A stretch of 35,328 bases of DNA from positions 1-35,328 of the forward strand of contig JBFMBH010000030.1 of the NCBI GenBank assembly GCA_040755095.1, in the 5' to 3' direction. Each line of letters begins with the position of its first letter. The stretch's first letter is position 1. Origin of the DNA: Thermodesulfobacteriota bacterium. GTDB lineage: Bacteria > Desulfobacterota > Desulfobulbia > Desulfobulbales > JBFMBH01. The position numbers and the translations under genes are program-made. Shown piece by piece: positions 3,249 to 32,376 of this stretch. Under the pieces are notes generated by a model, which did no database searches, had not been told where the DNA came from, and saw nothing but the letters and a program-made list of their open reading frames with translations.

Positions 3249-3544
3249 CGCCTTAAACTGGCCGCCACTGCAACCAGATGCTGGAACAGCAGGCCCCCAC
3301 GCGAGGACCCGTCGGGAGCCCTCTGGGCAAGGCGGGGCACCCGGTCCATCCGGGAACGGGCCCCCGGCCACTCTCTCCGGGTAGCCGGGGATTCTCACTC
3401 ATGACCGGTCTCCTGGGCTGGCCCGCGGCCATTCAGAGCATGCAAAATCAGCATGGTAACTCCGGTTCTTTCGGACTTGCCATGCCAAAAGAGGCACATG
3501 CCGGCCCCTTCTGCCCCGTCCGGATGCCCTGGGAGTCAAAGACC
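3249..3544. other. Intergenic region upstream of TIR-STAND gene with CATGC repeats
   Basis: No gene is supported here. An open frame continuous with the next CDS runs through it from about 3278, but its codons and product (Pro/Gly-rich) look non-coding. The distal half holds CATGC N7 GCATG (3439-3455) and two CATGCC copies (3481-3486 and 3497-3502), the first also forming TGCC-aaaaga-GGCA. These could be regulator sites for the downstream gene. I see no convincing -35/-10 pair. Confidence 0.35.
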
Positions 3545-6448
3545 ATGAGCGCCAAAACCGTCTTCATCAGCTACCGCCGGGACGCCTCTGGCAAGCCCTT
3601 CGCCCGGGCGCTCAAGCAGGAGCTGAAGCACCGGGGCTACGACGCCTTCCTGGATGTGGACGACATGGATGCCGGCCGTTGGCAGGCCCAGATTGAGCCG
3701 GAGATCCGGGGCCGCGCCCACTTCCTGCTGATCCTGACCCCCGGCGCCCTGGATCGGTGCGCCGACGAGGCCGACTGGCTGCGGCGGGAGCTCGCGCTCG
3801 CCTTGGCCTCCTGCCGGAACATTGTGCCGGTGCGGGAGGAGTCCGTGGATCTGGGCGAGCTGCGGCAGCACTGCCCGGAATGCATGCAGGGAGTCCTGGA
3901 TCTGCAGGTCTGCTGTGTCCGCCACGATGCCTTTGAGCGGGATGTGGACGAGCTGGTGGACCGCTATCTCCCGCCGCACAAGGCCTCGAAGCCGGCCGTG
4001 GAGCTTGCCCACGAGTGCCTGGTCGCCCCTCCCCGCCTGCGCCAAGGCGCCGAGCGGCTGTTCGGCCGGGATGAGGAGCTGGCCTTCCTGGACCGGGCCT
4101 GGGAGGACCCGGCCATCCATGTCCTCTCCCTGGTGGCCTGGGGTGGGGCCGGGAAGACCGCCCTGGTCGTGGAATGGATGAACCGGCGCGCTGCTGCCGG
4201 CTGGCCGGGCTTCGAGCGGGTCTTCGATTGGACGTTTTGCCGGCCGGCTCCCCAGGAACAGGGTGAGGCATCGGCGGACACCTTCACGGCGGCGGCCCTG
4301 GATTTCTTCGGCGACCCGGGTCTGGCCCGCAGTGCCGCCTCGCCATGGGACAAGGGGGCGCGACTTGCCCGGCTGGTGGCCGAGCGCCCCAGCCTGTTGG
4401 TGCTCGATGGCCTGGAGCCCCTCCAGCACCCGCCAGGCGCGCAAGGGGGAAAGCTCAAGGATCCGGTGCTGGAGGTCCTGATCCCCAGTCTGGCCAGGCA
4501 GAACCGGGGGCTGTGCCTTCTGACCACCAGGGAGGGTGTGGCGGATCTCGAGCCCTACCGCGCCACGACCGCGCCGGTTCTTAGGCTGGAGAGGATGTCT
4601 GTCGCGGCGGGGGTGGCTTTTCTTGCGAGCTTGGGGGTGCACGGCTGTGCCGCGGAGCTTGTCCGGCTGGTAGACGATACCGCAGGCCATGCCCTCACCC
4701 TGCGTCTGGTGGGCAGCTATCTTGCCAAGGCGCATGGCGGCGACGTACGCCGTCGGGATCGGGTGCGCCTGGGGCGGGCGAACCCGCAGATCCAGGGCGG
4801 CTGTGCCTTCGAGGCCATGGCCGCGTACGAGAAATGGCTTGCCCAGGGCGGCGAGGCGGGTGCACGCCAGCTGGCGCTGCTTCGTCTCCTGGGTCTCTTC
4901 GACCGGCCGGCAGATCCTTCCTGTCTGGCGGCCCTGCTCTGTCCGCCGGCCATCCCCGGCCTTACCGATCCCCTGGTCGGTATCGATGAGGAGGACTGGA
5001 ACTGCACGGTCACTGAGCTTCGGGTCGACTGCGGCCTGATCGCCGCCGCCACACGGGAAGGAGATGGTCCAGGGGGACTGAGCCTCGATACCCATCCGCT
5101 GGTCCGGGAGTACTTCGCCAAGCGGCTCCAGGAGAAGAATCCCGATGGCTGGCGGGAGGCTCACCGCCGCCTCTACGAGCATCTGAAAGCCAGCACCGCC
5201 CCGCAGCCGGAGACCCTGGACGGCTTGCAGCCCCTCTACCAGGCCGTAGCCCATGGCTGCCGGGCCGGGCTGGCTGAGGAGGCGTGCAACGAGGTCTACC
5301 GGAGCCGGATTCTCCGGCGGGGGGAGTTCTTCAGCATCAAGCAGCTCGGCGCCTTTGGCGCGGATCTGGGTGCCGTGGCCTGCTTTTTTGACCAGCCCTG
5401 GGGACGGACCCTGCCTGGGCTTTCGCCCAGACATCAGGCATGGCTTCTGAACGAGGCGGCGTTTCGCCTCCGCGCTCTGGGCCGCCTGGCTGAGGCCCTT
5501 GAGCCGATGCGCGGCGGACTCCGGAGAGGGGTGGAGCTGAAGGACTGGCACAACGCAGCCCGGGGGGCAAGCAATCTCAGTGAGCTGGAGCTGGCCCTGG
5601 GGGAGGTGGCCGCGGCGCTGCGGGATGCCGAGAAGTCCGTTGATTTCGCCGACTGCAACGACGATCCCTCTGAAAGCGCCTCCCGCCGGACCACCCTGGC
5701 CGATGCCCTCCATCAGGCCGGCCACCCTGCGGCGGCCCTGGCGCTTTTCCGCGAGGCGGAGGATCTCCAGGCCGCCAAGCAGCCCGCCTATCCGCTGCTC
5801 CGTTCCCTGCGGGGCTTCCGATACTGTGACCTGCTCCTGGCTGAAGGTGAGCGCGCCGCCTGGCGGCGGCTCCTGGGCAGGTCCGACTCCGCGGCGGCTG
5901 CCACGCAGGACGCAGGCGGGAGCGCTGCGGAGCACCGGGAAGTCCTCCAGCAGATCGCGAGCCGCGGGCAGCAGATGCTCGACCGGCGGGCCCCCGACGA
6001 TACCCTGCTCGACACGGCTTTCAATCATCTGATCCTGGGCCGGGCCAACCTGTACCGCAGCCTGCTGGCTCCGACTCCGGCAGAAGCGGCGGAGGCCGGC
6101 CGGGCTGCCCGGGACCGGCTTGCGGACGCCGTGCAGAGCCTTCGCCGTGCCGGCACCCAGCATCATATCCCCCGCGGCCTCCTCAGCCGGGCCTGGCTGC
6201 GCGCCGGCGCCGGTGACGCTGCCGGCGCCCGGGCCGATCTGGACGAGGCCTGGGAGATTGCCGAGCGGGGGCCGATGCGGCTGCACCTGGCGGATATCCA
6301 TCTCCACCGTGCCCGGCTGTTCTTCCGTACCGACCTGGCCCAGGCCGGCCAGGACCTGGCCGCGGCCCGGGTCCTCGTCGACCAGTGCGGTTACCACCGC
6401 CGGGACCAGGAGCTGCAGGATGCAGAGGCAGTGCTGGGAGCGGGGTGA
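3545..6448 (+). CDS. TIR-STAND NTPase with C-terminal helical/TPR-like repeats
   Basis: A 967-aa NLR-like protein. Residues 1-145 form a TIR domain: it opens KTVFISYRRD and has WLRRE at 78-82, matching the WxxxE motif whose Glu is the NADase catalytic residue in enzymatic TIRs. Residues about 170-480 are a STAND (NB-ARC/NACHT-type) NTPase with P-loop GGAGKT (200-205), Walker B LLVLDGLE (285-292), sensor-like LLTTR (326-330) and a GHALTLRLVGSYL segment. Residues from about 600 to the end are Ala/Leu-rich helical repeats of TPR type, the usual ligand-sensing part. I chose ATG 3545 because GGGAG precedes it by 9 nt and the TIR fold starts there; upstream Mets give a non-coding-like leader. Related proteins sense phage infection and deplete NAD+ or kill the cell. 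That role is inferred here, and the neighbouring PIN and HipBA genes fit a defence segment. Confidence 0.88.
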   Translation: MSAKTVFISYRRDASGKPFARALKQELKHRGYDAFLDVDDMDAGRWQAQIEPEIRGRAHFLLILTPGALDRCADEADWLRRELALALASCRNIVPVREESVDLGELRQHCPECMQGVLDLQVCCVRHDAFERDVDELVDRYLPPHKASKPAVELAHECLVAPPRLRQGAERLFGRDEELAFLDRAWEDPAIHVLSLVAWGGAGKTALVVEWMNRRAAAGWPGFERVFDWTFCRPAPQEQGEASADTFTAAALDFFGDPGLARSAASPWDKGARLARLVAERPSLLVLDGLEPLQHPPGAQGGKLKDPVLEVLIPSLARQNRGLCLLTTREGVADLEPYRATTAPVLRLERMSVAAGVAFLASLGVHGCAAELVRLVDDTAGHALTLRLVGSYLAKAHGGDVRRRDRVRLGRANPQIQGGCAFEAMAAYEKWLAQGGEAGARQLALLRLLGLFDRPADPSCLAALLCPPAIPGLTDPLVGIDEEDWNCTVTELRVDCGLIAAATREGDGPGGLSLDTHPLVREYFAKRLQEKNPDGWREAHRRLYEHLKASTAPQPETLDGLQPLYQAVAHGCRAGLAEEACNEVYRSRILRRGEFFSIKQLGAFGADLGAVACFFDQPWGRTLPGLSPRHQAWLLNEAAFRLRALGRLAEALEPMRGGLRRGVELKDWHNAARGASNLSELELALGEVAAALRDAEKSVDFADCNDDPSESASRRTTLADALHQAGHPAAALALFREAEDLQAAKQPAYPLLRSLRGFRYCDLLLAEGERAAWRRLLGRSDSAAAATQDAGGSAAEHREVLQQIASRGQQMLDRRAPDDTLLDTAFNHLILGRANLYRSLLAPTPAEAAEAGRAARDRLADAVQSLRRAGTQHHIPRGLLSRAWLRAGAGDAAGARADLDEAWEIAERGPMRLHLADIHLHRARLFFRTDLAQAGQDLAAARVLVDQCGYHRRDQELQDAEAVLGAG

Positions 6449-6533
6449 AGGGTCGGCCGGATCCGCCGGCGGGAGGTGAAGCCCGCGGCAGCGCACCGGG
6501 CCCGGGGGAGCCGGGGCCTCCGGCAATGCACCC

Positions 6534-6582
6534 ATGCGGGGTCCGCCCCGCGCATGGCGAGGCTCGCATGCCCCCGCCTCGC
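6534..6582. terminator. Hairpins between convergent TIR-STAND and hipA genes
   Basis: Two GC-rich stems lie in the 136-nt gap between convergent genes: GCGGGG-tccg-CCCCGC (6536-6551, extendable by CAT/ATG) and GCGAGG with CCTCGC (6558-6582 region). Neither is followed by a T-run, so they are at best weak or Rho-assisted terminators. Confidence 0.3.
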
Positions 6583-6584
6583 GC

Positions 6585-7781
6585 TCATCGGGCGAGATCC
6601 GCCAAGCCGGCCTCCCAGGCTGACAGCATCGCCACCCCGACTTCGTGGAAGCCGGGGTGCTGCGCGATGCGCTCGCGCACGAGTCCCCGGGTGTCGGCCA
6701 CCGCCTCGGCGGTGCGCGCGAAGATCTCTCGAATCGTTCCCACCGGCAAGAAGAGGTGCGCCCGGGCAAACCGCTCCAGCACCCGGCGGGGCCACCACTT
6801 CTTGCTCCCCTCCAGCGTCAGAGCCGGCACGTCGTTTCGGAGGTACGCCGCCGTGGTGACGACGTCGTACACCGGCGCCAGCCGAACCGGTGCCCCGGGG
6901 AAGGGGTAGAGCACGCCGAAGTTCTTCAGGTGGGCATCGCCGTTTCTGACCAGTACCGACAGGACCAGGGTGGCGAAAAACTGCGCCCGGGCCGCCGGCA
7001 GGTGCTCGCCGGAGACGAAGTCGCCAAGGGTGCGGGCGACCCGTTCGTAGCTTCCCGTGTACTTCTGGGCCGTTCCCAGCGCCTGCAGGCTGCACAGGTC
7101 CTCGAAGCCGAGGGGGGCGCCGTCCGGGTCGAGGTCGAAGCGCCGCATCACGAAGAGGCCGCCGCTTTCCGAGAGGAAGAGCTCGGGCACGGGCAATCCG
7201 GCCCGCCGCGCTGCCGTCATGCACAGGAACTCGTTGGCGGCCAGGTGCGGAAAGTCCGCGCCCTCCGCTTTCACGATGTAGCCGGCAGCGGCCAGGGTGC
7301 CTCGGCTGGCAGCCTCAAGCAGCACCTTGGGCTGGACGCCGGAGACCCCCGAGCGGAGGGCGTAGCGCTCCACCAGCTCGCGGAAGAGCTCCCGGGCGTC
7401 GGGGTAGGTCAGGAGATCCTCCAGCGACTCCGGGGTCTCCACGATCCTGGGCACGCCCTCCTCGGGGAGAGCGAAGCGGTTTCTCCCCACCTGGTTTCCG
7501 CCGGTCACCCGGAGGATGGCCAGGTCGTCTTCGCCCACCACCTTGGCGATCGCACGGCGTATCGCCTCCAGGAGCGCGCCTTCGGGGAGGTTCATCTGAA
7601 AGATCGGGTGCAGGTCGCGGCTCAGCCAGCTCTCGAGGCGCACCGGCATGGTGAGGGAGACCCGGCTTTCTGCCGGTGCGCCGGGCGCATAGGCAAAGAC
7701 ATACTCGTACGGCTTTTCCCGCGCCAGCAGCCCCGCTCGGGCTCCCCCACCCCAGACCGCGAGGGATCGGACGGCGTCCAC
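6585..7781 (-). CDS. hipA: HipA family serine/threonine kinase toxin
   Basis: This is a HipA-type kinase (398 aa), the toxin of a type II toxin-antitoxin pair. Family members phosphorylate targets such as glutamyl-tRNA synthetase and so arrest translation; the target here is unknown. Visible motifs are SGVQPK (147-152) in the N-subdomain, the ATP-anchoring Lys in YIVKAEG (K171), the catalytic loop NGDAHLKN (280-287), and the metal-binding Asp in PVYDVV (D306). All key residues are present, so the kinase looks active. It is shorter than E. coli HipA (440 aa). The GTG start abuts the hipB TAG with no gap, so the toxin is translationally coupled behind its antitoxin. Expression is expected to be repressed by HipB or a HipAB complex through the palindromes upstream of hipB. 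Confidence 0.93.
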   Translation of the reverse strand: MDAVRSLAVWGGGARAGLLAREKPYEYVFAYAPGAPAESRVSLTMPVRLESWLSRDLHPIFQMNLPEGALLEAIRRAIAKVVGEDDLAILRVTGGNQVGRNRFALPEEGVPRIVETPESLEDLLTYPDARELFRELVERYALRSGVSGVQPKVLLEAASRGTLAAAGYIVKAEGADFPHLAANEFLCMTAARRAGLPVPELFLSESGGLFVMRRFDLDPDGAPLGFEDLCSLQALGTAQKYTGSYERVARTLGDFVSGEHLPAARAQFFATLVLSVLVRNGDAHLKNFGVLYPFPGAPVRLAPVYDVVTTAAYLRNDVPALTLEGSKKWWPRRVLERFARAHLFLPVGTIREIFARTAEAVADTRGLVRERIAQHPGFHEVGVAMLSAWEAGLADLAR

Positions 7782-23589: not shown

Positions 23590-24381
23590 TTATCCTCCCA
23601 GGCCCTGGGCCAGACGGGGCAGAAGCCGCTCCAGGGTCGTGATCTCTTTCAGCAAGAGGGGAGCGAACAGGCCCAGGGACAGCCCGACGAAGATGAAGCC
23701 CAGGGCGATGTTCAAGGGCAGGCTGACGATGAGCAGGTTGATCTGGGGCACGGTCTTGGCCAGGATGCCCAGGGCCACCTGGGAGAAGAACAGCACCGCC
23801 GAGACCGGGGCCATGATCTTGATGGCCAGAACGAACATGCGGCTGACCCCGGCCATCATACCCCGGAAGGTGGCCTCGGAGAGGGTGAGGCCGCCCGGGG
23901 GCACCCAGGCGAAGCTTTCCGCCATGGTGGCAAGGAACAGGTGGTGGCCATCCACGGCCAGGAAGAGCAGGATGGCGGTCAGGTTCCAGAACTGGCCCAC
24001 CTGAGAGATCTGGGTGCCGAACTGGGGGTCCATGACCCCGGCCATGCCCATGCCCATCTGCACCCCCACCATCTGGCCGCCGGTCTCGACAGCAGCGAAG
24101 ACCAGGCGGGCGAACAGGGCAAGGATGGCCCCGAAGGTCAGCTCGCTCAGGACCAGCAGCAGGCAGCCGGCGGCACCGGCGGGCAGGTCCCGGGCCGAGA
24201 CCGGCACCACCCCTACCAGGGCCAGGGCGGTCACCGCCGTGAACAGGGCCTTCACCTGGCTGGGCACGCCCCGGGAGCCGAGAACCGGCATGAGAAAAAG
24301 CAGGGTCCCCACCCGGACCATGATCACGGTCAGGATCAGGAGCCTTTCGACCGTCCAGTTGAGAAGAAAGGAATCCGGCAT
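23590..24381 (-). CDS. fliR: Flagellar export gate protein FliR
   Basis: A 263-aa polytopic protein with about six hydrophobic segments. It belongs to the FliR/SpaR family, forming the FliP5-FliQ4-FliR1 export gate in the inner membrane. Family marks are the region GGQMVGVQMGMGMAGVMDP and the late helix VSLPLNIALGFIFVGL. It lies between fliQ (5 nt) and flhB (3 nt). Confidence 0.96.
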   Translation of the reverse strand: MPDSFLLNWTVERLLILTVIMVRVGTLLFLMPVLGSRGVPSQVKALFTAVTALALVGVVPVSARDLPAGAAGCLLLVLSELTFGAILALFARLVFAAVETGGQMVGVQMGMGMAGVMDPQFGTQISQVGQFWNLTAILLFLAVDGHHLFLATMAESFAWVPPGGLTLSEATFRGMMAGVSRMFVLAIKIMAPVSAVLFFSQVALGILAKTVPQINLLIVSLPLNIALGFIFVGLSLGLFAPLLLKEITTLERLLPRLAQGLGG

Positions 24382-24386
24382 GGCGG

Positions 24387-24656
24387 CTAGCGGATCATGT
24401 CCGGAATCCGCAGGAAGAGACTTTCCACATAGGAGGTCATCTTGCCCATCATCCAGGGGGTGAAGAAGAGCAGGGTGGCCAGCACGGCGACGATCTTGGG
24501 CACAAAGGTGAGGGTCATCTCCTGGATCTGGGTGACCGCCATGAACAGCGAAATGAGGACGCCCACCACCATGCCCACCAGGAGCAGGGGACCCGAAAGG
24601 AGCAGGGTCAGGACGATGGTCTCCTTGGCCAGACTGAGAACGTCGAGGGTGGTCAT
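24387..24656 (-). CDS. fliQ: Flagellar export gate protein FliQ
   Basis: An 89-aa protein with two membrane helices separated by the conserved short loop (AVTQIQEMTLTFVPKI), the standard FliQ layout and length. An AGGAG stands a few nt before the ATG. It is 31 nt after fliP. Confidence 0.97.
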   Translation of the reverse strand: MTTLDVLSLAKETIVLTLLLSGPLLLVGMVVGVLISLFMAVTQIQEMTLTFVPKIVAVLATLLFFTPWMMGKMTSYVESLFLRIPDMIR

Positions 24657-24687
24657 GGCAGCTCCTGGGCAGTGAGGCTCGAGCCTT

Positions 24688-25452
24688 TCAGCCGAAGCTT
24701 CGCACCAGGGATCCGGCCAGAAGATGCCAGCCGTCCACCAGCACGAAAAGCAGGAGCTTGAAGGGCAGGGAGACCAGGACCGGCGGCAGCATCATCATGC
24801 CCATGGACAGGAGCACCGAGGCCACCACCATGTCGATGATCAAAAAGGGCAGAAAGAGCACGAAGCCCACCTGGAAGGCGGTCTTGAGCTCGCTGATCAC
24901 GTAGGCGGGGATCAGGATCAGGGTGGGAACGTCGTCCCGGTTCTGGGGCTTGTCGAGCTTGGCCATGGCCATGAAGAGCCCCAGGTCCTTCTCCCGGGTC
25001 TGGCGGAACATGAAGGCGCGCAGGGGCTGGGCCGCCTCGGTGACGGCCTGCTCCAGGGAGATGGTCTCGGCCATGTACGGCTCGATGGCCTTGGTGTGGA
25101 TCTCGGCGGCCACCGGCCGCATGATGAAGAAGGTCAGAAACAGGGCCAGGCCGATCATCACCTGGTTGGGCGGCATCTGCTGGGTGCCGATGGCGTTGCG
25201 CAGGAAGGAGAAGATGACCACCAGCCGGGTGAACGAGGTCATCATCAGCATGATGGCCGGCGCCATGGTCAGGATGGTGAACAGGAGCAGGATCTCCACC
25301 AGCACCGAGACCTGGGCCGGGGTGGTGGCTTCCTCGACCCCCAGCCGCAAGGTGGGCAGGGAGAGGGCCAGGGCCGGTGCCGGCGCCAGGGCCAGGATGA
25401 GGGCCAGGGTCAGGACACCCGGGCGGCTGGTGGGGCGGGGCTGACTGCTCAT
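24688..25452 (-). CDS. fliP: Flagellar export gate protein FliP
   Basis: A 254-aa protein with a cleavable-type N-terminal signal (about 1-30), as many FliP proteins have. Four membrane helices and the family signatures [20 protein letters not shown] and [24 protein letters not shown] follow. It forms the pentameric core of the export pore. Its ATG overlaps the fliO stop by 4 nt. Confidence 0.97.
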
Positions 25453-25940
25453 GAGGGTCCTTGCTCCGTACGCGGCGTCGGGTCTGCGGCCCGGGCCAGG
25501 AGGCTGGCGAAGGCGCCGGGCCGGCCGGCGGCCTCCTCCGGCGCGGCCGGGGCCGGTGGCTCCCCCAGCCGGGAGAGAAAGGTGATCGCCTGGTCGGTGA
25601 TGCCGACCAGGATCGTTTCCTGGCCCACCGCCAGCACCGCCACCGATTTCTTGGGGCCCAGCAGGCGCTGGTCCAGCACCCGGATGAGGCTCCCCGGCCG
25701 GCCGGCCAGTCCGGGCAGGCCCAGGCGGCGCAGCCAGAAGGCCAGCGCCGCCAGGAGTCCCAGGACCAGCACCAGGCTGCCGGTCACCTTGAGGAGCGCC
25801 GGCCAGGCCGCAGGCTCCACCAGGGCCCCGGTCTCGGCCGCGCCGGTGGCCACGGTCCGGGCCGCCTCCTCGGCGGCCTGGACAGCGGTGGCGGCCAGGG
25901 CCAGGAGCGGGGCGCCGGTGACGATCCCGCGCCGCGTCAC
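25449..25940 (-). CDS. fliO: Flagellar biosynthesis protein FliO
   Basis: A 163-aa protein with an N-terminal hydrophobic signal-like stretch (to about residue 22), one strong membrane helix at about 48-68 ([19 protein letters not shown]) and a cytoplasmic tail with the FliO/MopB-type strand pattern [23 protein letters not shown]. FliO helps assemble FliP. The GTG start overlaps the fliN stop in a GTGA junction. Confidence 0.92.
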
Positions 25941-26362
25941 CCCATGTTCTTCACCCGGTCGGCCTGGCTGATGATCTCGGTGATCCGCACCCCGAAGCGC
26001 TCGTTGAGGACGATCACCTCGCCCTTGCCCATCATCTTGCCGTTGACGTAAATGTCCACCGGCTCGCCGGCCGCCTTGTCCAGCTCCACCACCGAGCCTT
26101 GGGTGAGCTGCAGGAGGCGGTTGACGATCATGGTGCTTCTGCCCAGCTCCACCGTCACCTCCAGGGGCACGTCCAGGAGGAATTCCAGGTTCTGGGTGCC
26201 CAGCTGCTGGGCAGACCCGTCCCCCAGCTCTTCGAACTCAGCGGCGTGGCTGCCGCCGCCCATGGCCACGGACCACTCGTCCCCGCCCTTGGCCGCCTTG
26301 CCGCCCCCGCTCTGATCGGACAGGGCATCGGCCCAGGCATCGTCCAGGGATTTGTCCGGCAT
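25937..26362 (-). CDS. fliN: Flagellar motor switch protein FliN
   Basis: A 141-aa C-ring protein. The first 55 residues are charged and Gly-rich. The SpoA domain (about 60-138) has the typical [25 protein letters not shown] and [13 protein letters not shown] strands. It forms the base of the C-ring, where export cargo and CheY-P contact it. GGGGGA lies before the ATG. Confidence 0.97.
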
Positions 26363-26388
26363 GACTTCCCCCTTGCCGCTCGCAGCGG

Positions 26389-27378
26389 CTAGTCGTTGTT
26401 GGGATCCAGAACCCGTTTGACGATCTGGAAGGCCTTGTTGCCCCGGTGGATGCCGGGCTTGCCCATGTACTTGCGGATCCCGGCGATGAAGGCGGGCAGG
26501 AGGTCATCCTTGCGGTTGCCCAGCTGGATGATGTCGCCCACCCCCAGCTCCATGATGTCGCCGGCCGGGATGAAGGCCCGTCCGAGCTCCACCTTGATGG
26601 AGATGGGCAGGTTGCCGGTGTTCTCGGTGATGAGCTTGCGGGTGGTCATGTCCTCGCCCGCTTTCTCCCTCTGGAAGGTGGTGGTCAAAAGATGCTTGAT
26701 GGATTCCAGATTGGTGAGCGGGATGCAGGAGGTGATGCTGCCGACGCTGCGCTCCATGTCCACCTCGAACTTGTTGATGATCACCACGTCCTCGGGCTCG
26801 CAGATCTTGGCGAACTGCGGGTTGATCTCGCTGCGGATGTACTGGACCGTCACCGGATGCAGGGAGTGCCAGGCCTTCTCCATGTCGGTGAAGATGATGT
26901 TGACCACCCGCCGGATCAGACGCTGCTCGATGGGGGTGAAGTCCCGGCCCTCGATGCGGATGTTGCGGCGGCCGCTGCCACCCAGGAAGCTCTCCACAAA
27001 GGCGAAGACCACCCGGGGCTCCATGACCAGGAGGGCATGGCCGCGGAAGGGATCCATCTTGAAGATCTGCAGCGAGCTTGGCACCGGCAGGGTGCGGATG
27101 AAGTTGCCGAAGCGGTCCAGCTCCATGGGCACGGTGGTGATGTCGATGATCCGGCGGAGAGCGGTGGACAGCGAGGTGCGCAGGGCGCGCAGGAAGGCAT
27201 CGTTGATGACCTCCAGGGCCGGCATCTTGATCTGGACCAGCCGGTCCTGGCGGGTGAAGTCATACGGGGTATAGCCGAGGGCCTCGGCATCGATGGGCTC
27301 CTCGACCTCTTCGATCTCGCCACCGGTGATGCCCTTCAGGAGGGCATCCACCTCGTCCTGGCTGAGGATCTGTTCCAT
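26389..27378 (-). CDS. fliM: Flagellar motor switch protein FliM
   Basis: A 329-aa protein. Its N-terminal peptide LSQDEVDALL (about 4-13) is the CheY-P docking motif. The CheC-like middle domain spans about 45-235 with GHALLVMEPRVVFAFVESFLGG. The SpoA domain spans about 245-329 (KVELGRAFIPAGDIMELGVGDII). It builds the switch ring that reverses rotation. It lies between the palindromic repeat array (upstream) and fliN (26 nt downstream). Confidence 0.97.
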   Translation of the reverse strand: MEQILSQDEVDALLKGITGGEIEEVEEPIDAEALGYTPYDFTRQDRLVQIKMPALEVINDAFLRALRTSLSTALRRIIDITTVPMELDRFGNFIRTLPVPSSLQIFKMDPFRGHALLVMEPRVVFAFVESFLGGSGRRNIRIEGRDFTPIEQRLIRRVVNIIFTDMEKAWHSLHPVTVQYIRSEINPQFAKICEPEDVVIINKFEVDMERSVGSITSCIPLTNLESIKHLLTTTFQREKAGEDMTTRKLITENTGNLPISIKVELGRAFIPAGDIMELGVGDIIQLGNRKDDLLPAFIAGIRKYMGKPGIHRGNKAFQIVKRVLDPNND

Positions 27379-27426
27379 GGTGTGGCAAGTCCTTGGCAGT
27401 CGCAGCGGCGCCGGAGGTTATCCGGG

Positions 27427-27489
27427 GCTCATAGGACTCATGGGTTTCATAGGACCTATTAGGACTTGTAGGCCCTACAGGTCCTCTGG
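27427..27489. repeat. Tandem 9-nt repeat and long hairpin, copy 2
   Basis: The fliL-fliM gap holds a degenerate roughly 9-nt array (CTCATAGGA, CTCATGGGT, TTCATAGGA, CCTATTAGG and so on). It ends in a long stem: AGGACTTGTAGG (27461-27472), C, CCTACAGGTCCT (27474-27485), 12 pairs with one G-U/T-C mismatch. The same unit occurs at 15985-16017. It may mark an operon-internal processing or attenuation site. Confidence 0.6.
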
Positions 27490-27511
27490 ACCCCCGGGCC
27501 GTGCGACCGTC

Positions 27512-28018
27512 TTACTGCACGACAAAGTCCGTAAAATAGATGTTGCGCACCCGATCCGGCTTGATGGCCTGGTTGAAGCGGTCCAACAGCTCGTCCCGGA
27601 TGCGGATCTTGCCCTCCGGGGTCATGACGTCCTCGAAGGACAGGCTGGTGAGCAGCATGATCACCGCGTCCCGGAGCCGGGGGTCGAGCTTCTTGAGCTT
27701 CTCGACGATGATCTCGGTATCCACCTCCACCTGAATCTTGAGCTTCAGGTAGCGCTTGCCCTTGGGATCCACCAGATTGACGATAAAGGGCTCCATGCTG
27801 TACATGGCGCCCGGCGCCTGCTCCTTGCCCGCGGTGCGGACCGGCTGGTGGCCGGTCTCGGCCTCGTCTTCCGGCGTCGCCTGATGGGCAAAGAACTTGG
27901 TGTAGGCGAAGAACCCGCCGCCTCCCAGAGCGAGGACCCCCACCCCGAGGATGATGATGAGCATCATCTTCTTCTTGCCCTTGGCCGCGGTGCTGGGGGC
28001 TTGTGCGTCATCCGCCAT
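27512..28018 (-). CDS. fliL: Flagellar basal-body protein FliL
   Basis: A 168-aa single-pass membrane protein. A Lys-rich cytoplasmic start (AAKGKKK) leads into a membrane helix at about 18-38, then a periplasmic FliL domain with YSMEPFIVNLVDPKGKRYLKLKIQVEV and the closing INxxYFTDFVVQ-type strand. It stabilises the stator-motor contact. It heads the operon. GAGG lies 10 nt before ATG 28018. It is transcribed divergently from aconitase. Confidence 0.95.
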   Translation of the reverse strand: MADDAQAPSTAAKGKKKMMLIIILGVGVLALGGGGFFAYTKFFAHQATPEDEAETGHQPVRTAGKEQAPGAMYSMEPFIVNLVDPKGKRYLKLKIQVEVDTEIIVEKLKKLDPRLRDAVIMLLTSLSFEDVMTPEGKIRIRDELLDRFNQAIKPDRVRNIYFTDFVVQ

Positions 28019-28354
28019 CGCTTGCTGTCCTCTTTTTGCTGTCGGGTGCCCCGGGGATGGGAAGCCCCTGTCCTGGCCGTAAGCAACACCCATGCCATGA
28101 CCAGCGGCGGCCCCGGGGGCCGGAAGCGGGGCCGCATGCCGGCTCGGGCTGCACCCGGGCCGGTGTCGGGTTTTCGGCTCTTGGCCCGCCGGTCGTCGGA
28201 ATATTGACACCGGCAGCGAAACGTGGTCAGTATACCGCTTCCGCCGGCAGCAGGGCCGGCGGCAGGGAGCGGTGGCCCGTTGTGGGCCCGGCGTCGGGGC
28301 ACGCCACCGTCCCTCGCCCAGCATACACCAAGAGCGCCAGGGAGTGCACAGTCG
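28019..28354. other. Divergent intergenic region between fliL and aconitase
   Basis: 336 nt with no supported gene. It must hold the promoter of the flagellar operon (minus strand) and of aconitase (plus strand). TTGACA occurs at 28204-28209 and GTATAC near 28230, but the 20-21-nt spacing is too long for a standard sigma-70 promoter. No convincing sigma-54 or sigma-28 site was found. Confidence 0.4.
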
Positions 28355-30280
28355 ATGGGCCAGACCGTTTTCGAGAAGATCATCGCCAGCCACCTCGTGG
28401 AGGGGCGGCCGGTGCCGGGGGAGACCATCGGCATCCGCATCGACCAGACCCTCACCCAGGACGCCACCGGCACCATGGCCTACCTGGAGCTCGAGGCCAT
28501 CGGCATCCCGCGGGTGCGCACCGAGCTGTCGGTCTCCTACGTGGACCATAATCTGCTGCAGTCGGACTTCCGCAACGCCGATGACCATCGCTTCCTGCAG
28601 TCCACGGCCCGTCGTTTCGGTCTCCTCTTTTCGCCGCCCGGCAACGGCATCTCTCATCAGATCCACCTGGAGCGCTTCGGCCGGCCGGGCCGAACCCTCC
28701 TGGGCTCGGACAGCCACACCCCCACAGGCGGTGGTCTGGGCATGGTGGCCATGGGCGCCGGCGGCCTGGACGTGGCCATGGCCATGGCCGGCCAGCCGTT
28801 CTTTCTGACCATGCCCCGGGTCCTGGGGGTGTATCTGACCGGCCAGCTGCCGGACTGGGTGTCGGCCCGGGATCTGGTCCTGGAGCTCCTGCGGCGGCTG
28901 ACCGTGAAGGGCGGGGTGGGGCGGGTGATCGAGTACTGGGGGCCGGGTGTGGCCTCTTTGTCGGTGACGGAGCGGGCGGCCATCACCAACTTCGGGGCCG
29001 AGCTGGGCGCTACCACCTCGATCTTTCCCTCGGATGAAGCCACCCGCCGCTTTCTGGTCGCGCAGGGCCGGGAGAAGGACTGGGCGCCCCTGGCCGCCGA
29101 TGCCGATGCCACCTTTCAGGAGAGCATGGAGATCGATCTGTCCACCTTGGAGCCCCTGATCGCCTGCCCGTCGTCGCCGGACAATGTGCAGCCGGTGCGG
29201 GCGGTGGCGGGGCGGCCGGTGGCCCAGGTCCTGGTGGGCTCCTGCTCCTGCTCGGGACTGCCGGATCTCACCCTGGCGGCTCGGGTGCTGGCCGGGCGGC
29301 AGGTGCATCCGGCAGTGTCCTTCGAGGTCAACCCCGGCAGTCGCCAGGTGCTGGAGAACCTGGCCGCCCAGGGAGACCTTTTGACCCTGCTTTTGGCCGG
29401 CGCCCGGATCCACCAGGCCGGCTGCCTGGGCTGCATCGGCATGGGCCAGGCCCCGGCCACCGATACCATCTCGCTGCGCACCTTTCCCCGGAACTTTCCG
29501 GGCCGCAGCGGCACCAGAAACGACCAGGTCTATCTGTGCTCCGCAGAGGTGGCAGTGGCCGCCGCCATCCACGGGGCGATCACCGATCCCCGCGAGCTGG
29601 GACGGCGGCCGGCGTTCAGCCTGCCGGAGCGCTATCTCCCGGGCGACGAGCGGATTCTGCTGCCGGCGCCGGCCGGGGAGGCGGCAGAGGTCGAGATCCT
29701 GCGCGGTCCCAACATCCAGCCTTTCCCCCGCTTCGAGCCCCTGCCCGAGGACTGGGAGGGCGAGATCCTCCTGGTCACCGGCGACAACATCACCACCGAT
29801 CACATCATGCCGGCCGGCGCCAAGATCCTGCCGTTGCGCAGCAACATTCCGGCGATCAGCGAGTTCGTGTTCGAGGCGGTGGATCCCGGCTTCGTGGCCC
29901 GGGCCCGGGCCGCCAAGAGCGGTCTGGTGGCGGGCGGTGAGAACTACGGCCAGGGCTCGTCCCGGGAGCACGCCGCCCTGGCGCCCCGGGCCCTGGGGGT
30001 GCGGATCAAGCTGGTCAAGAGCTTTGCCCGCATCCACCTGGCCAATCTCTTCAACTTCGGCATCGTGCCGCTGACCTTCGCCAACGCCTCGGACTACGAA
30101 CGGCTGGCGGTGGGCGATCGGGTGGCGATCCCTGGCATCCGCCAGGCCCTGGCCGCGGGTCAGGAGACCCTCACGCTGCTGGTCAATGGTCAGGCCGTCA
30201 TGGCCCGTCTTGAGGCCTCGCCCCGGCAGCGGCAGATCCTCGTGGCCGGTGGCCTCCTCAACTGGGCCCGGGGCGGCTGA
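28355..30280 (+). CDS. acn: Aconitate hydratase, Aquifex-type
   Basis: A 641-aa [4Fe-4S] aconitase converting citrate to isocitrate in the TCA cycle. It belongs to the compact (about 640 aa) Aquifex/deltaproteobacterial-type branch. Domain 1 contains DSHTPTGGGLGMVAMGAGGLD. Fe-S ligands are in VGSCSCSGLPD (C297/C299) and GCLGCIG (C357, C360). The C-terminal swivel domain begins around residue 470 and has GDNITTDHIMP and GENYGQGSSREHAAL. ATG 28355 has GGAG about 10 nt upstream, and the conserved MGQTVFEKI start supports it. It is monocistronic. A strong hairpin terminator lies 340 nt downstream. Confidence 0.96.
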   Translation: MGQTVFEKIIASHLVEGRPVPGETIGIRIDQTLTQDATGTMAYLELEAIGIPRVRTELSVSYVDHNLLQSDFRNADDHRFLQSTARRFGLLFSPPGNGISHQIHLERFGRPGRTLLGSDSHTPTGGGLGMVAMGAGGLDVAMAMAGQPFFLTMPRVLGVYLTGQLPDWVSARDLVLELLRRLTVKGGVGRVIEYWGPGVASLSVTERAAITNFGAELGATTSIFPSDEATRRFLVAQGREKDWAPLAADADATFQESMEIDLSTLEPLIACPSSPDNVQPVRAVAGRPVAQVLVGSCSCSGLPDLTLAARVLAGRQVHPAVSFEVNPGSRQVLENLAAQGDLLTLLLAGARIHQAGCLGCIGMGQAPATDTISLRTFPRNFPGRSGTRNDQVYLCSAEVAVAAAIHGAITDPRELGRRPAFSLPERYLPGDERILLPAPAGEAAEVEILRGPNIQPFPRFEPLPEDWEGEILLVTGDNITTDHIMPAGAKILPLRSNIPAISEFVFEAVDPGFVARARAAKSGLVAGGENYGQGSSREHAALAPRALGVRIKLVKSFARIHLANLFNFGIVPLTFANASDYERLAVGDRVAIPGIRQALAAGQETLTLLVNGQAVMARLEASPRQRQILVAGGLLNWARGG

Positions 30281-30535
30281 GCGGGAGGCCACCGGGCCAA
30301 GAATTTGAACCCGGCCGGCCGGCCGCCCCCGGAAAGCGGCCCTGGGGGCGCTGGCCGCCGGCCCGGCTGCTTCTGCCGGCCGGCGCGCCGGGGTACAAAA
30401 TTAGCGATCCTGCTATCCTGTTGAAATAGCCGCTTAATTTGGAGAAGGCCCCGGGCGGCCATCCGGGGTGGTACAAGAAATTGAACCAGGGGAGGGGAAA
30501 GGCTGGAGGGCGGCTTCTGGCGGAAAATCCTTGCA
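30281..30535 (+). promoter_or_regulatory. Upstream control region of the sigma-54 promoter
   Basis: No gene is supported. Two similar 17-mers start with CAAGAA (30298-30314 and 30474-30490; differing at two positions). An inverted repeat GCTAT-N9-ATAGC lies at 30412-30430. TACAAAATT and TACAAGAAATT boxes repeat at about 30393 and 30472. They sit about 100-300 nt before the predicted sigma-54 start, the usual place for enhancer-binding activators. Which element is bound is unknown. Confidence 0.4.
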
Positions 30536-30566: not shown

Positions 30567-30583
30567 TGGCACGCCCCTTGCTA
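30567..30583 (+). promoter_or_regulatory. Sigma-54 (RpoN) promoter
   Basis: TGGCACGCCCCTTGCTA is a full match to the -24/-12 consensus TGGCACG-N4-TTGCW, with GG at 30568-30569 and GC at 30580-30581 at the required spacing. Transcription should begin near 30593. No coding region follows on this strand; a terminator begins within 30 nt. Confidence 0.8.
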
Positions 30584-30592
30584 GTCAAGAAG

Positions 30593-30660
30593 GCAAGTCT
30601 CCAATCTTCTCCTTTCTCCTGAAAAAGCCGGCCCTCTCTCCCAAGGGCCGGCTTTTTCAT
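30593..30660 (+). ncRNA. Candidate sigma-54-dependent small RNA, about 66 nt
   Basis: Predicted from the sigma-54 promoter start (about 30593) to the end of the intrinsic terminator (about 30660). The 5' half is unpaired and pyrimidine-rich, with TTCTCCTTTCTCCT (30607-30620), complementary to Shine-Dalgarno sequences such as AGGAGAAAGGAG. The 3' half is the terminator stem. This layout, a seed plus a terminator, is typical of trans-acting regulatory RNAs. No family is recognised and expression is unproven. The alternative is a dead-end transcript from a relic promoter. Confidence 0.55.
30621..30658. terminator. Bidirectional intrinsic terminator
   Basis: GAAAAAGCCGGCCCT (30621-30635) pairs perfectly over 15 bp with AGGGCCGGCTTTTTC (30644-30658) across an 8-nt loop. 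The A-run and T-run flank the GC stem, so it works in both directions: for the aconitase-side or small-RNA transcript on plus, and for exonuclease III on minus, whose stop codon overlaps the stem. Confidence 0.92.
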
Positions 30661-31454
30661 TGGCTCAGCGCAAAATCGGCCACCAGGAAGGTGTGGTCCG
30701 AAGGCTTGGCCGCCAGGCGGGGGGCGAGGTCGACAAAGGCATCCTGGCAACGGGCGGCCAGGGGAGCCGTGGCCAGGATGTGGTCGATGCGCCAGCCGAT
30801 GCCCCGTTTGGCGGCATTGGGCACCCGGTAGTCGAAGAAGGTGAAGAGGCCTGGCTCCGGGTGGTGCTGGCGCACGACATCGATGAAGCCCCAGGCCCTG
30901 GTCGTGGCCAGGGCTTGGCGCGCCGCCGGTGCAAAGCAGACGTGCTCGGCCAGCTCTTCGGGGCTGGGGACGTCCATGGGCTCCGGGGCCACGTTCAGGT
31001 CCCCGGCCCAGATCACGGCGGCCTCTGGCGTGAAGTGGCGGTCGAAGTAGGCGGCCAGGCGGGCAAGCCACTCCAGCTTCATCTGGAACTGGGGATGGCT
31101 TAAGGCCCGGCCCTGGGGCACGTAGGTGTTGACGATGGCAAGCCCGGCGACCTGCACCATGATCAGGCGGGTGTCGTCGGCCGGGCCGCCGTCGTCGAAG
31201 CCGTAGCGGGCCTCGTCCGGGGGCTGCCGGCTGGCGATCGCCACGCCGTTGTACGACTTCTCCCCCCGAAAGACCACGTGGTAGCCGGCCTCGCGGAAGG
31301 CCGCAGCCGGGAAGTCCTGGTCCTGGGCCTTGGTCTCCTGGAGGCACAGGACGTCCGGCTGGTGCGCCGCCAGCCAGCCCAGGATGATGGGCAGGCGCGA
31401 GCGGACCGAGTTGGCGTTGAAGGTGGCCAGGCGGAAGCGATGCGGCAGGGGCAT
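30657..31454 (-). CDS. xthA: Exodeoxyribonuclease III
   Basis: A 265-aa EEP-superfamily nuclease/AP endonuclease of base excision repair. Catalytic motifs are FNANSVRSR near the N-terminus, LQETK (metal Glu), GDLNVAPEP, GWRIDHIL and the terminal SDH with the catalytic His. Length is standard. ATG 31454 is chosen because GAGG lies 7 nt upstream and the conserved LATFNANSVR start follows. Its stop codon overlaps the terminator stem. It is transcribed divergently from fabL. Confidence 0.96.
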   Translation of the reverse strand: MPLPHRFRLATFNANSVRSRLPIILGWLAAHQPDVLCLQETKAQDQDFPAAAFREAGYHVVFRGEKSYNGVAIASRQPPDEARYGFDDGGPADDTRLIMVQVAGLAIVNTYVPQGRALSHPQFQMKLEWLARLAAYFDRHFTPEAAVIWAGDLNVAPEPMDVPSPEELAEHVCFAPAARQALATTRAWGFIDVVRQHHPEPGLFTFFDYRVPNAAKRGIGWRIDHILATAPLAARCQDAFVDLAPRLAAKPSDHTFLVADFALSQ

Positions 31455-31623
31455 GGGCGATCCTCGCGGTCGAGAAGGGCTTGTGCCAGGGGTTGACAGA
31501 TCCTCCGTTCTATAGCATGTTGGCCGGCCACCAGCCACGGCCTTTCCGGGAAATGCGCCTTTACAGGCTGCGCGGTCCCGTAGTACCGTGGCGGCAAAGG
31601 CGCCAAGGCACAAGGAGGAGGGT
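31455..31623 (+). promoter_or_regulatory. Divergent xthA-fabL intergenic region
   Basis: 169 nt between divergent genes. A perfect -35 TTGACA (31493-31498) faces fabL, but the best -10 at 17-nt spacing (CATGTT, 31516-31521) is weak, and TATAGC (31511-31516) is only 12 nt away. A strong AAGGAGGAGG ribosome site lies just before fabL. Confidence 0.35.
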
Positions 31624-32376
31624 ATGTTCGGACTGGCGGGCAAGGTGGCCCTGGTCACCGGCAGCTCCCGGGGGATCGGGCGGGCGGTGGCCCTGAAGCT
31701 GGCGGCCAACGGTGTCGATCTGGTGGTCAACTACCTCCGGCACCGGCAGGATGCCGAGGTTACCGCCGCCGAGATTGAGGCGCAAGGCGTCCGTTGCCTG
31801 GTGGTCCAGGGCAACGTCGCCGACGAAGGGGATGTGGCGGCCATGTTCCAGGAGATCCGCCGCGCCTACAGCCGGTTGGACATCCTGGTCAGCAATGCCG
31901 CCTCCGGGGTGTTGAAGCCGGTTCTGGAGCTCAGCTCCCGGCACTGGAACTGGACCATGGACATCAACGCCCGGGCCCTGCTCACCTTGAGCCAGCAGGC
32001 GGTGCCCCTCATGCCCGGCCCCGGCAGGATCCTGGCCGTCTCCAGCCTGGGGGCGGTACGGGCCATCGAGAACTACGCCGCGGTGGGCTCGTCCAAGGCG
32101 GCCATGGAGTCTCTGGTTCGCCACCTGGCGGTGGAGCTGGGACCCAAGGGCATCAATGTCAATGTCATCAGTGCCGGCGCCGTGGACACCGAGGCCTTGA
32201 AGCGCTTCCCCAACCGGGCGCAGATCCTGGAAACCGCCCGCCGGGGCACGCCCCTGGGCCGCCTGACCACGCCCGAGGATGTGGCCAATGTCGCTCTCTT
32301 CCTGTGCAGCGAGCTGGCGGCCATGATCCAGGGCCAGACGGTGACCGTGGACGGCGGCTACTCCATCCGGGCTTGA
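31624..32376 (+). CDS. fabL: FabL-type enoyl-ACP reductase (NADPH), SDR family
   Basis: A 250-aa short-chain dehydrogenase. The Rossmann motif is TGSSRGIG (about 12-19). The segment NAASGVLKPVLEL-xx-HWNWTMDINARALL closely resembles B. subtilis FabL as I recall it. The catalytic Tyr/Lys lie in YAAVGSSKAA, and the C-terminal DTEALKRFPNR and IQGQTVTVDGGYS blocks also match FabL. FabL reduces the enoyl-ACP double bond in fatty-acid synthesis and is insensitive to triclosan in characterised members. AAGGAGGAGG precedes the ATG. Maf follows 48 nt later, so the two are probably co-transcribed. Confidence 0.88.
   Translation: MFGLAGKVALVTGSSRGIGRAVALKLAANGVDLVVNYLRHRQDAEVTAAEIEAQGVRCLVVQGNVADEGDVAAMFQEIRRAYSRLDILVSNAASGVLKPVLELSSRHWNWTMDINARALLTLSQQAVPLMPGPGRILAVSSLGAVRAIENYAAVGSSKAAMESLVRHLAVELGPKGINVNVISAGAVDTEALKRFPNRAQILETARRGTPLGRLTTPEDVANVALFLCSELAAMIQGQTVTVDGGYSIRA

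Follow-up and report, generated by a model that had tools for sequence, protein, structure and literature searches.

Several enterobacterial small RNAs, among them MicA, MicC, MicF, OmrA/B, and RybB, repress porins, depend on Hfq, and are driven by sigma-E or other factors. The Burkholderia RNA NcS25 represses a porin at the Shine-Dalgarno/start region but lacks its own sigma-54 element (PMC10117139). In Qrr (LuxO), GlmY/GlmZ (GlrR), CrcZ (CbrB), and Pxr of Myxococcus, an activator works at a sigma-54 promoter to produce a free-standing regulatory RNA; Pxr has three stem-loops and is encoded between nla19 and an NADH dehydrogenase gene (PMC5568312). Dv_sRNA2 of Desulfovibrio vulgaris is a target of the response regulator DVU0679, adjoins the regulator gene, and has no known function (PMC3333781). 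CJnc230 of Campylobacter jejuni is RpoN-dependent by way of co-transcription with flgE, is processed from the flgE transcript, and carries an anti-Shine-Dalgarno stretch with which it acts as a translational repressor of flagellar regulators (PMC11187230).

The locus described here lies in a 35,328-nucleotide stretch of contig JBFMBH010000030.1 from a Thermodesulfobacteriota bacterium (hereafter, the window). Its putative RNA product resembles the enterobacterial porin regulators in being a short, trans-encoded RNA predicted to act on the Shine-Dalgarno/start region of a porin mRNA, but it has a sigma-54 promoter and an activator site of its own, in a genome without detectable Hfq, and comparison through Rfam found no sequence relation to any of these RNAs or to NcS25. 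With NcS25 it appears to have in common a bidirectional terminator shared with a neighboring gene (PMC10117139). The combination of activator, sigma-54 promoter, and free-standing RNA is that of Qrr, GlmY/GlmZ, CrcZ, and Pxr, from all of which the window RNA differs in activator-site palindrome, structure, seed, and target; with one stem-loop and an aconitase/short-chain dehydrogenase (SDR) context, it does not meet the definition of Pxr. Dv_sRNA2 is likewise a regulator-controlled small RNA of a sulfate reducer, but it belongs to another lineage and sits beside its regulator gene, while the window RNA differs from CJnc230 in having its own promoter and a predicted porin target. Rfam 15 has no family that reaches its gathering threshold in the window or at the small RNA of 14 related loci, and a lax search of seven loci returned only sub-threshold matches. 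Features of the locus are collected in Table 1.

Table 1. Predicted features of the small RNA locus and neighboring genes, numbered from the first nucleotide of the window.
Feature	Position	Strand	Basis or remark
Aconitase family protein, conserved upstream neighbor	28355..30280	+	PF00330, PF00694
Possible second activator site, degenerate, GTACAAAATTAGCGAT	30393..30408	+	10/16, weak; 174 nt upstream of -24
Putative upstream activator site GTACAAGAAATTGAAC	30471..30486	+	14/16 to RTACAAAAAATTGTAY; about 96-103 nt before -24 element
Sigma-54 promoter, -24/-12 TGGCAC-N5-TTGCT (TGGCACGCCCCTTGCTA)	about 30567-30583	+	Perfect element; alignment of relatives
Predicted small RNA, ~67 nt	about 30593-30659	+	Covariance model R1 match, E 9e-13; start from promoter geometry
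Pairing core UCUCCUUUCUCCU (TCTCCTTTCTCCT)	30608..30620	+	Near-invariant in relatives; predicted unpaired
Intrinsic terminator, probably bidirectional, common to xth	30620..30659	+	Fold; both-sided pair changes in consensus
Exodeoxyribonuclease III-like (xth), convergent	30657..31610	-	PF03372; start approximate
Short-chain dehydrogenase/enoyl-ACP-reductase-like (SDR), conserved downstream neighbor	31588..32376	+	PF13561

The exact pattern TGGCAC-N5-TTGCW occurs once in the 35-kb window, where 0.03 occurrences would be expected. We inferred the +1 position, near 30593, from promoter geometry, taking the GC of TTGC as -13/-12. Upstream regions of related loci have in common the palindrome GTAYAAAAAATTGTAY, matched at 12 or more of 16 positions in 63 of the 65 loci scored, and its position peaks 100-105 nt upstream of the -24 element. 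A second copy, set back by about another 76 nt, is present in many loci, and in several relatives a good copy is found at about 179-190 nt. The window version, GTACAAGAAATTGAAC, has no other exact copy in its own 4.5-Mb genome. This conserved palindrome marks the promoter as a full activator-dependent sigma-54 promoter. A -24/-12 element at the right distance and an enhancer site some 80-200 nt upstream are the marks of the sigma-54 small RNA class, and the locus, judged from sequence alone, has both.

Searching 243 genomes for the palindrome with a sigma-54 promoter downstream of it gave 46 matches, and none for the reversed control. About 36 of the matches are the small RNA gene itself, and therefore the activator, a protein not yet identified, seems nearly dedicated to that gene; we regard this as a possibility that holds within the stringency of the pattern used. 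Sites of the same kind away from the RNA gene were seen at G035:C95:44561, G043:C198:2201, C1 of G116 and of G121, G171:C240, G181:C38:276461, and a few other places. These may mark other targets of the activator, or its own gene.

Folding of segment 30593-30662 predicts an unpaired 5' half and then a stem of 16 bp closed by an 8-nt loop, at -29.7 kcal/mol and z -7.5. The small RNA showed no conserved ORF. The stretch TTCTCCTTTCTCCT at 30607-30620 is predicted to be about 90% unpaired, and an additional UCUCC occurs at 30598-30602. The terminator hairpin, which has an A-run on its 5' side and a T-run on the other, overlaps the stop codon (30657-30659) of xth, a convergent gene; therefore it probably terminates xth as well, and we infer, as the likely arrangement, a single hairpin that serves both transcripts. 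The terminator loop is kept as CUUGUCCCCCCAAG or CUUUGUCCCCCAAAG in loci L003, L008, L010, L012, L013, and L062-L065 (families f3 and f4) and is absent from f12; this second C-rich single-stranded loop may be another pairing or protein site. A first-pass annotation, made without database searches, had called the sigma-54 promoter, and this held, the element being perfect and the only exact one in the window. Its ORF-less RNA of about 66 nt, running from about 10 nt past the promoter to a terminator, held on sequence at about 67 nt, with transcription inferred. Its perfect 15-bp terminator held in part, the terminator being strong but the stem 16 bp long. The overlap with xth and the 5' A-run were absent from that description.

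The hairpin might be taken for a mere bidirectional terminator of aconitase and xth that lies beside a chance sigma-54-like sequence, as the overlapped xth stop codon and the flanking A- and T-runs would suggest. This explanation can be practically ruled out, because many families that lack xth have kept the promoter, activator site, seed, and spacing.

Evidence for a conserved RNA gene comes from several searches. A nucleotide search found the promoter-seed-terminator unit in relatives from other families. The core-only pattern, which set no promoter requirement, matched in 52 of 258 genomes as against about 2 for its reversed control, and nearly all of its matches have a -24/-12 element at constant distance together with a terminator; the exceptions lie within coding sequence. 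A scan of 84,980 species produced 51 matches, nearly all of them with the full unit and either in Desulfobulbales or in unnamed deltaproteobacterial records, including Desulfopila aestuarii, Desulfoprunum benzoelyticum, and Desulfobulbus sp. Tol-SR. Four matches outside Desulfobulbales (in Clostridia, Cryptobacteroides, Planctomycetia, and Chloroflexi) were rejected as chance, being without terminator or flanking conservation. Across 56 aligned sequences, 8 of 14 consensus pairs have changed on both sides and still pair. A covariance model derived from this alignment identifies the unit in 222 of 251 genomes (about 88%) and 62 of 69 genera of Desulfobulbales, the order being assigned by named records, and finds the window small RNA to be single copy. 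Counts of members found by exact seed overstate seed conservation, while the covariance-model counts are less affected. In a sample of the phylum, 73 of 297 genomes match, more weakly, and these include clear relatives outside the order, although the weakest may be chance. Two or more copies of the RNA per genome were seen both outside and inside the order, at L158 (G520:C49 9306 and 9758, in tandem) and in G480, G046, and G005. A TPP riboswitch (Rfam RF00059) is located at L155:234-342, close to an RNA relative from outside the order.

The gene upstream of the unit encodes aconitase in 13 loci, window included, and a phosphoglycerate-dehydrogenase-like protein in 12; downstream genes encode DUF362 in 33 loci and SDR in 19. 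The window retains aconitase and SDR, and its xth gene occupies the place held by DUF362 in most relatives. Retention of aconitase before and SDR after the unit makes it orthologous by synteny. Because the immediate neighbors change while promoter, seed, and terminator stay, the RNA must be viewed as free-standing, with no need of any particular downstream gene. Flagellar export/switch genes FliR, FliN, FliM, and FliL are found just before aconitase (window 23593-30280), and several f3 relatives also have FliL close to the RNA, which makes the neighborhood an old one. Elsewhere in the window, a TIR-domain protein gene and a HipA-like kinase gene at 3278-7781 are possibly a defence or toxin-antitoxin patch.

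This variability also bears on a second explanation, that the unit is a sigma-54 leader with a terminator, an attenuator for a downstream DUF362-SDR operon, and not a trans-acting RNA. In its favor, DUF362 lies downstream on the same strand in 33 loci, sometimes only about 20-40 nt past the terminator, and read-through may feed it. However, the window and several other loci have a different or convergent next gene with the unit unchanged, the gap from terminator to DUF362 is variable and without any conserved element, antiterminator included, and the seed covaries with the start of a distant porin gene, as documented below. We consider attenuation very unlikely and return to the trans-acting RNA.

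The genome of the window contains 15 sites with at most one mismatch to the complement of the core (the RNA gene counted), compared with 3 for the reversed control. Two of the 15 are at a start codon, and one of these belongs to an exported protein that resembles DESULF_POR1 outer-membrane porins (E 2e-13, under the curated cut-off), with an outer-membrane beta-barrel match in a relative. Here the RNA core pairs with the porin start region (G000:C201:2790-2802) at 12 of 13 positions, with one mismatch. Pairing is perfect in families f4 and f5, where the porin leader AAGGAGAUAAGAG-AUG is a 13-nt complement of RNA CUCUUAUCUCCUU; in 12 genomes the exact 13-mer AAGGAGATAAGAG adjoins the porin ATG. 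G222, a complete genome, contains this 13-mer solely in the RNA gene and at the start of the porin, two occurrences where 0.08 chance matches would be expected. In f12, leader AAGGAGAGAAGAG and RNA CUCUUCUCUCCUU are altered together, the leader adjoins the porin ATG in 9 genomes, and the porin is the sole recurring target of the altered seed; in genome G138 of this family, an 18-bp pairing runs across the Shine-Dalgarno sequence, spacer, and AUG. Genus g21, with RNA CUCAUAUCUCC and leader GAGAUAUGA, shows another matched change.

Mean duplex energies agree with this for three RNA types. The g21 RNA averages -24.9 with its own leaders, as against -16.9 to -21.1 with others; the f12 RNA, -24.8 as against -18.9 to -20.8; and the window-type RNA, -21.1 as against -16.4 to -18.3. 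A genus-level permutation over 14 genera, not corrected for phylogeny, gave p 0.002. The commonest RNA type (f3/f4/f5) shows no average preference for its own leaders in these energies, because several f3 leaders pair over the Shine-Dalgarno part only. Pairing of RNA and porin leader is weak in f14 genomes, and the matches are concentrated in a few genera. As porin homologues were found in 45 of 116 genomes searched, a much narrower distribution than that of the RNA, other targets are likely in many genomes. We nevertheless infer, from sequence alone, an accessible seed that is complementary to a porin translation start and kept so by compensatory change.

Exact-pattern searches stood in for genome-wide energy ranking in this target search, and longer, lineage-specific seeds were needed to reach the porin. 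The core-only complement AGGAGAAAGGAGA was rejected as a target finder, since its matches are mostly in coding sequence and include no recurring target; one recurring match in genus g16 has the look of conserved coding sequence rather than of a leader. This same sequence occurs 120 times in genome G174, as against 0-5 times in most genomes, as a dispersed repeat that is unexplained, and a tandem 7-bp version of it is found at G035:C83 63484-63524. In both L327 (G043:C137) and L326 (G003:C20), the complement AAGGAGATAAGAG is also found where a further exported protein begins, the one in G043 resembling a putative outer-membrane porin. Both proteins are possible further targets.

It remains conceivable that the RNA is real and the porin incidental, the UCUCC repeats in truth serving to regulate some other set of mRNAs or to titrate a protein or RNA. 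The seed is similar to a generic anti-Shine-Dalgarno sequence, many RNA-bearing genomes lack the porin, and f3/f4 members carry the additional conserved C-rich loop. Against this, the match does not stop at the Shine-Dalgarno sequence but also takes in the spacer and AUG, is almost the only one in the genome, and changes with the RNA. We therefore judge this alternative unlikely.

Our preferred reading, which we hold to be likely, is of a free-standing, sigma-54-dependent, trans-acting RNA that lowers synthesis of a DESULF_POR1-like porin. Promoter, activator site, terminator, conservation, synteny, and complementarity with covariation support it at the level of sequence; transcription, repression, and the identity and signal of the activator are inferred. 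An unidentified enhancer-binding protein would bind GTAYAAAAAATTGTAY at about 100 nt upstream, and often at about 180 nt as well, and activate sigma-54 polymerase. An RNA of about 67 nt would be made, stopping at its own terminator, and its pyrimidine-rich, unpaired 5' half would pair with the porin mRNA from the Shine-Dalgarno sequence through the spacer to the start codon. With its start region covered, the mRNA would be blocked to the 30S subunit and less porin would be made. Hfq (PF17209) was not found in the window's own genome at E 0.001, and so the small RNA does not meet the definition of an Hfq-dependent one; PF17209 matches were found in 5 of 14 control genomes. Without detectable Hfq, pairing is probably Hfq-independent, and long perfect pairing may substitute for the chaperone.

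Of the functional proposals in the first-pass annotation, complementarity of the unpaired 5' half to ribosome binding sites held, now with a covarying site at a porin start codon. A trans-acting translational repressor under sigma-54 control is supported by conservation, activator site, and covarying target, repression itself being inferred. The suggested check for conservation of promoter, seed, and terminator across relatives was passed, and the claim that the RNA is undescribed in this lineage is supported by the lack of an Rfam family and of any description in the literature searched. Flagellar targets were not supported, none having emerged, and induction under nitrogen-stress or flagellar-activating conditions is unsupported.

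A bolder reading, which we would as readily doubt as accept, is of a single-purpose envelope circuit on the scale of the phylum: an unknown sigma-54 activator with recognizable sites almost only at the RNA gene, the major porin of sulfur-cycling bacteria silenced without Hfq, and RNA and porin start drifting together since the order arose. Regulation by small RNAs in Desulfobacterota is almost undescribed in the literature searched. Here, an RNA family found in most sampled genomes of one order has its promoter, activator site, RNA, and covarying target defined to the base, and its hosts include the cultured strains Desulfoprunum benzoelyticum DSM 28570 and Desulfopila aestuarii DSM 18488. The sigma-54 activator that would govern outer-membrane permeability, the signal it reads, and RNA pairing without Hfq thereby become directly testable.
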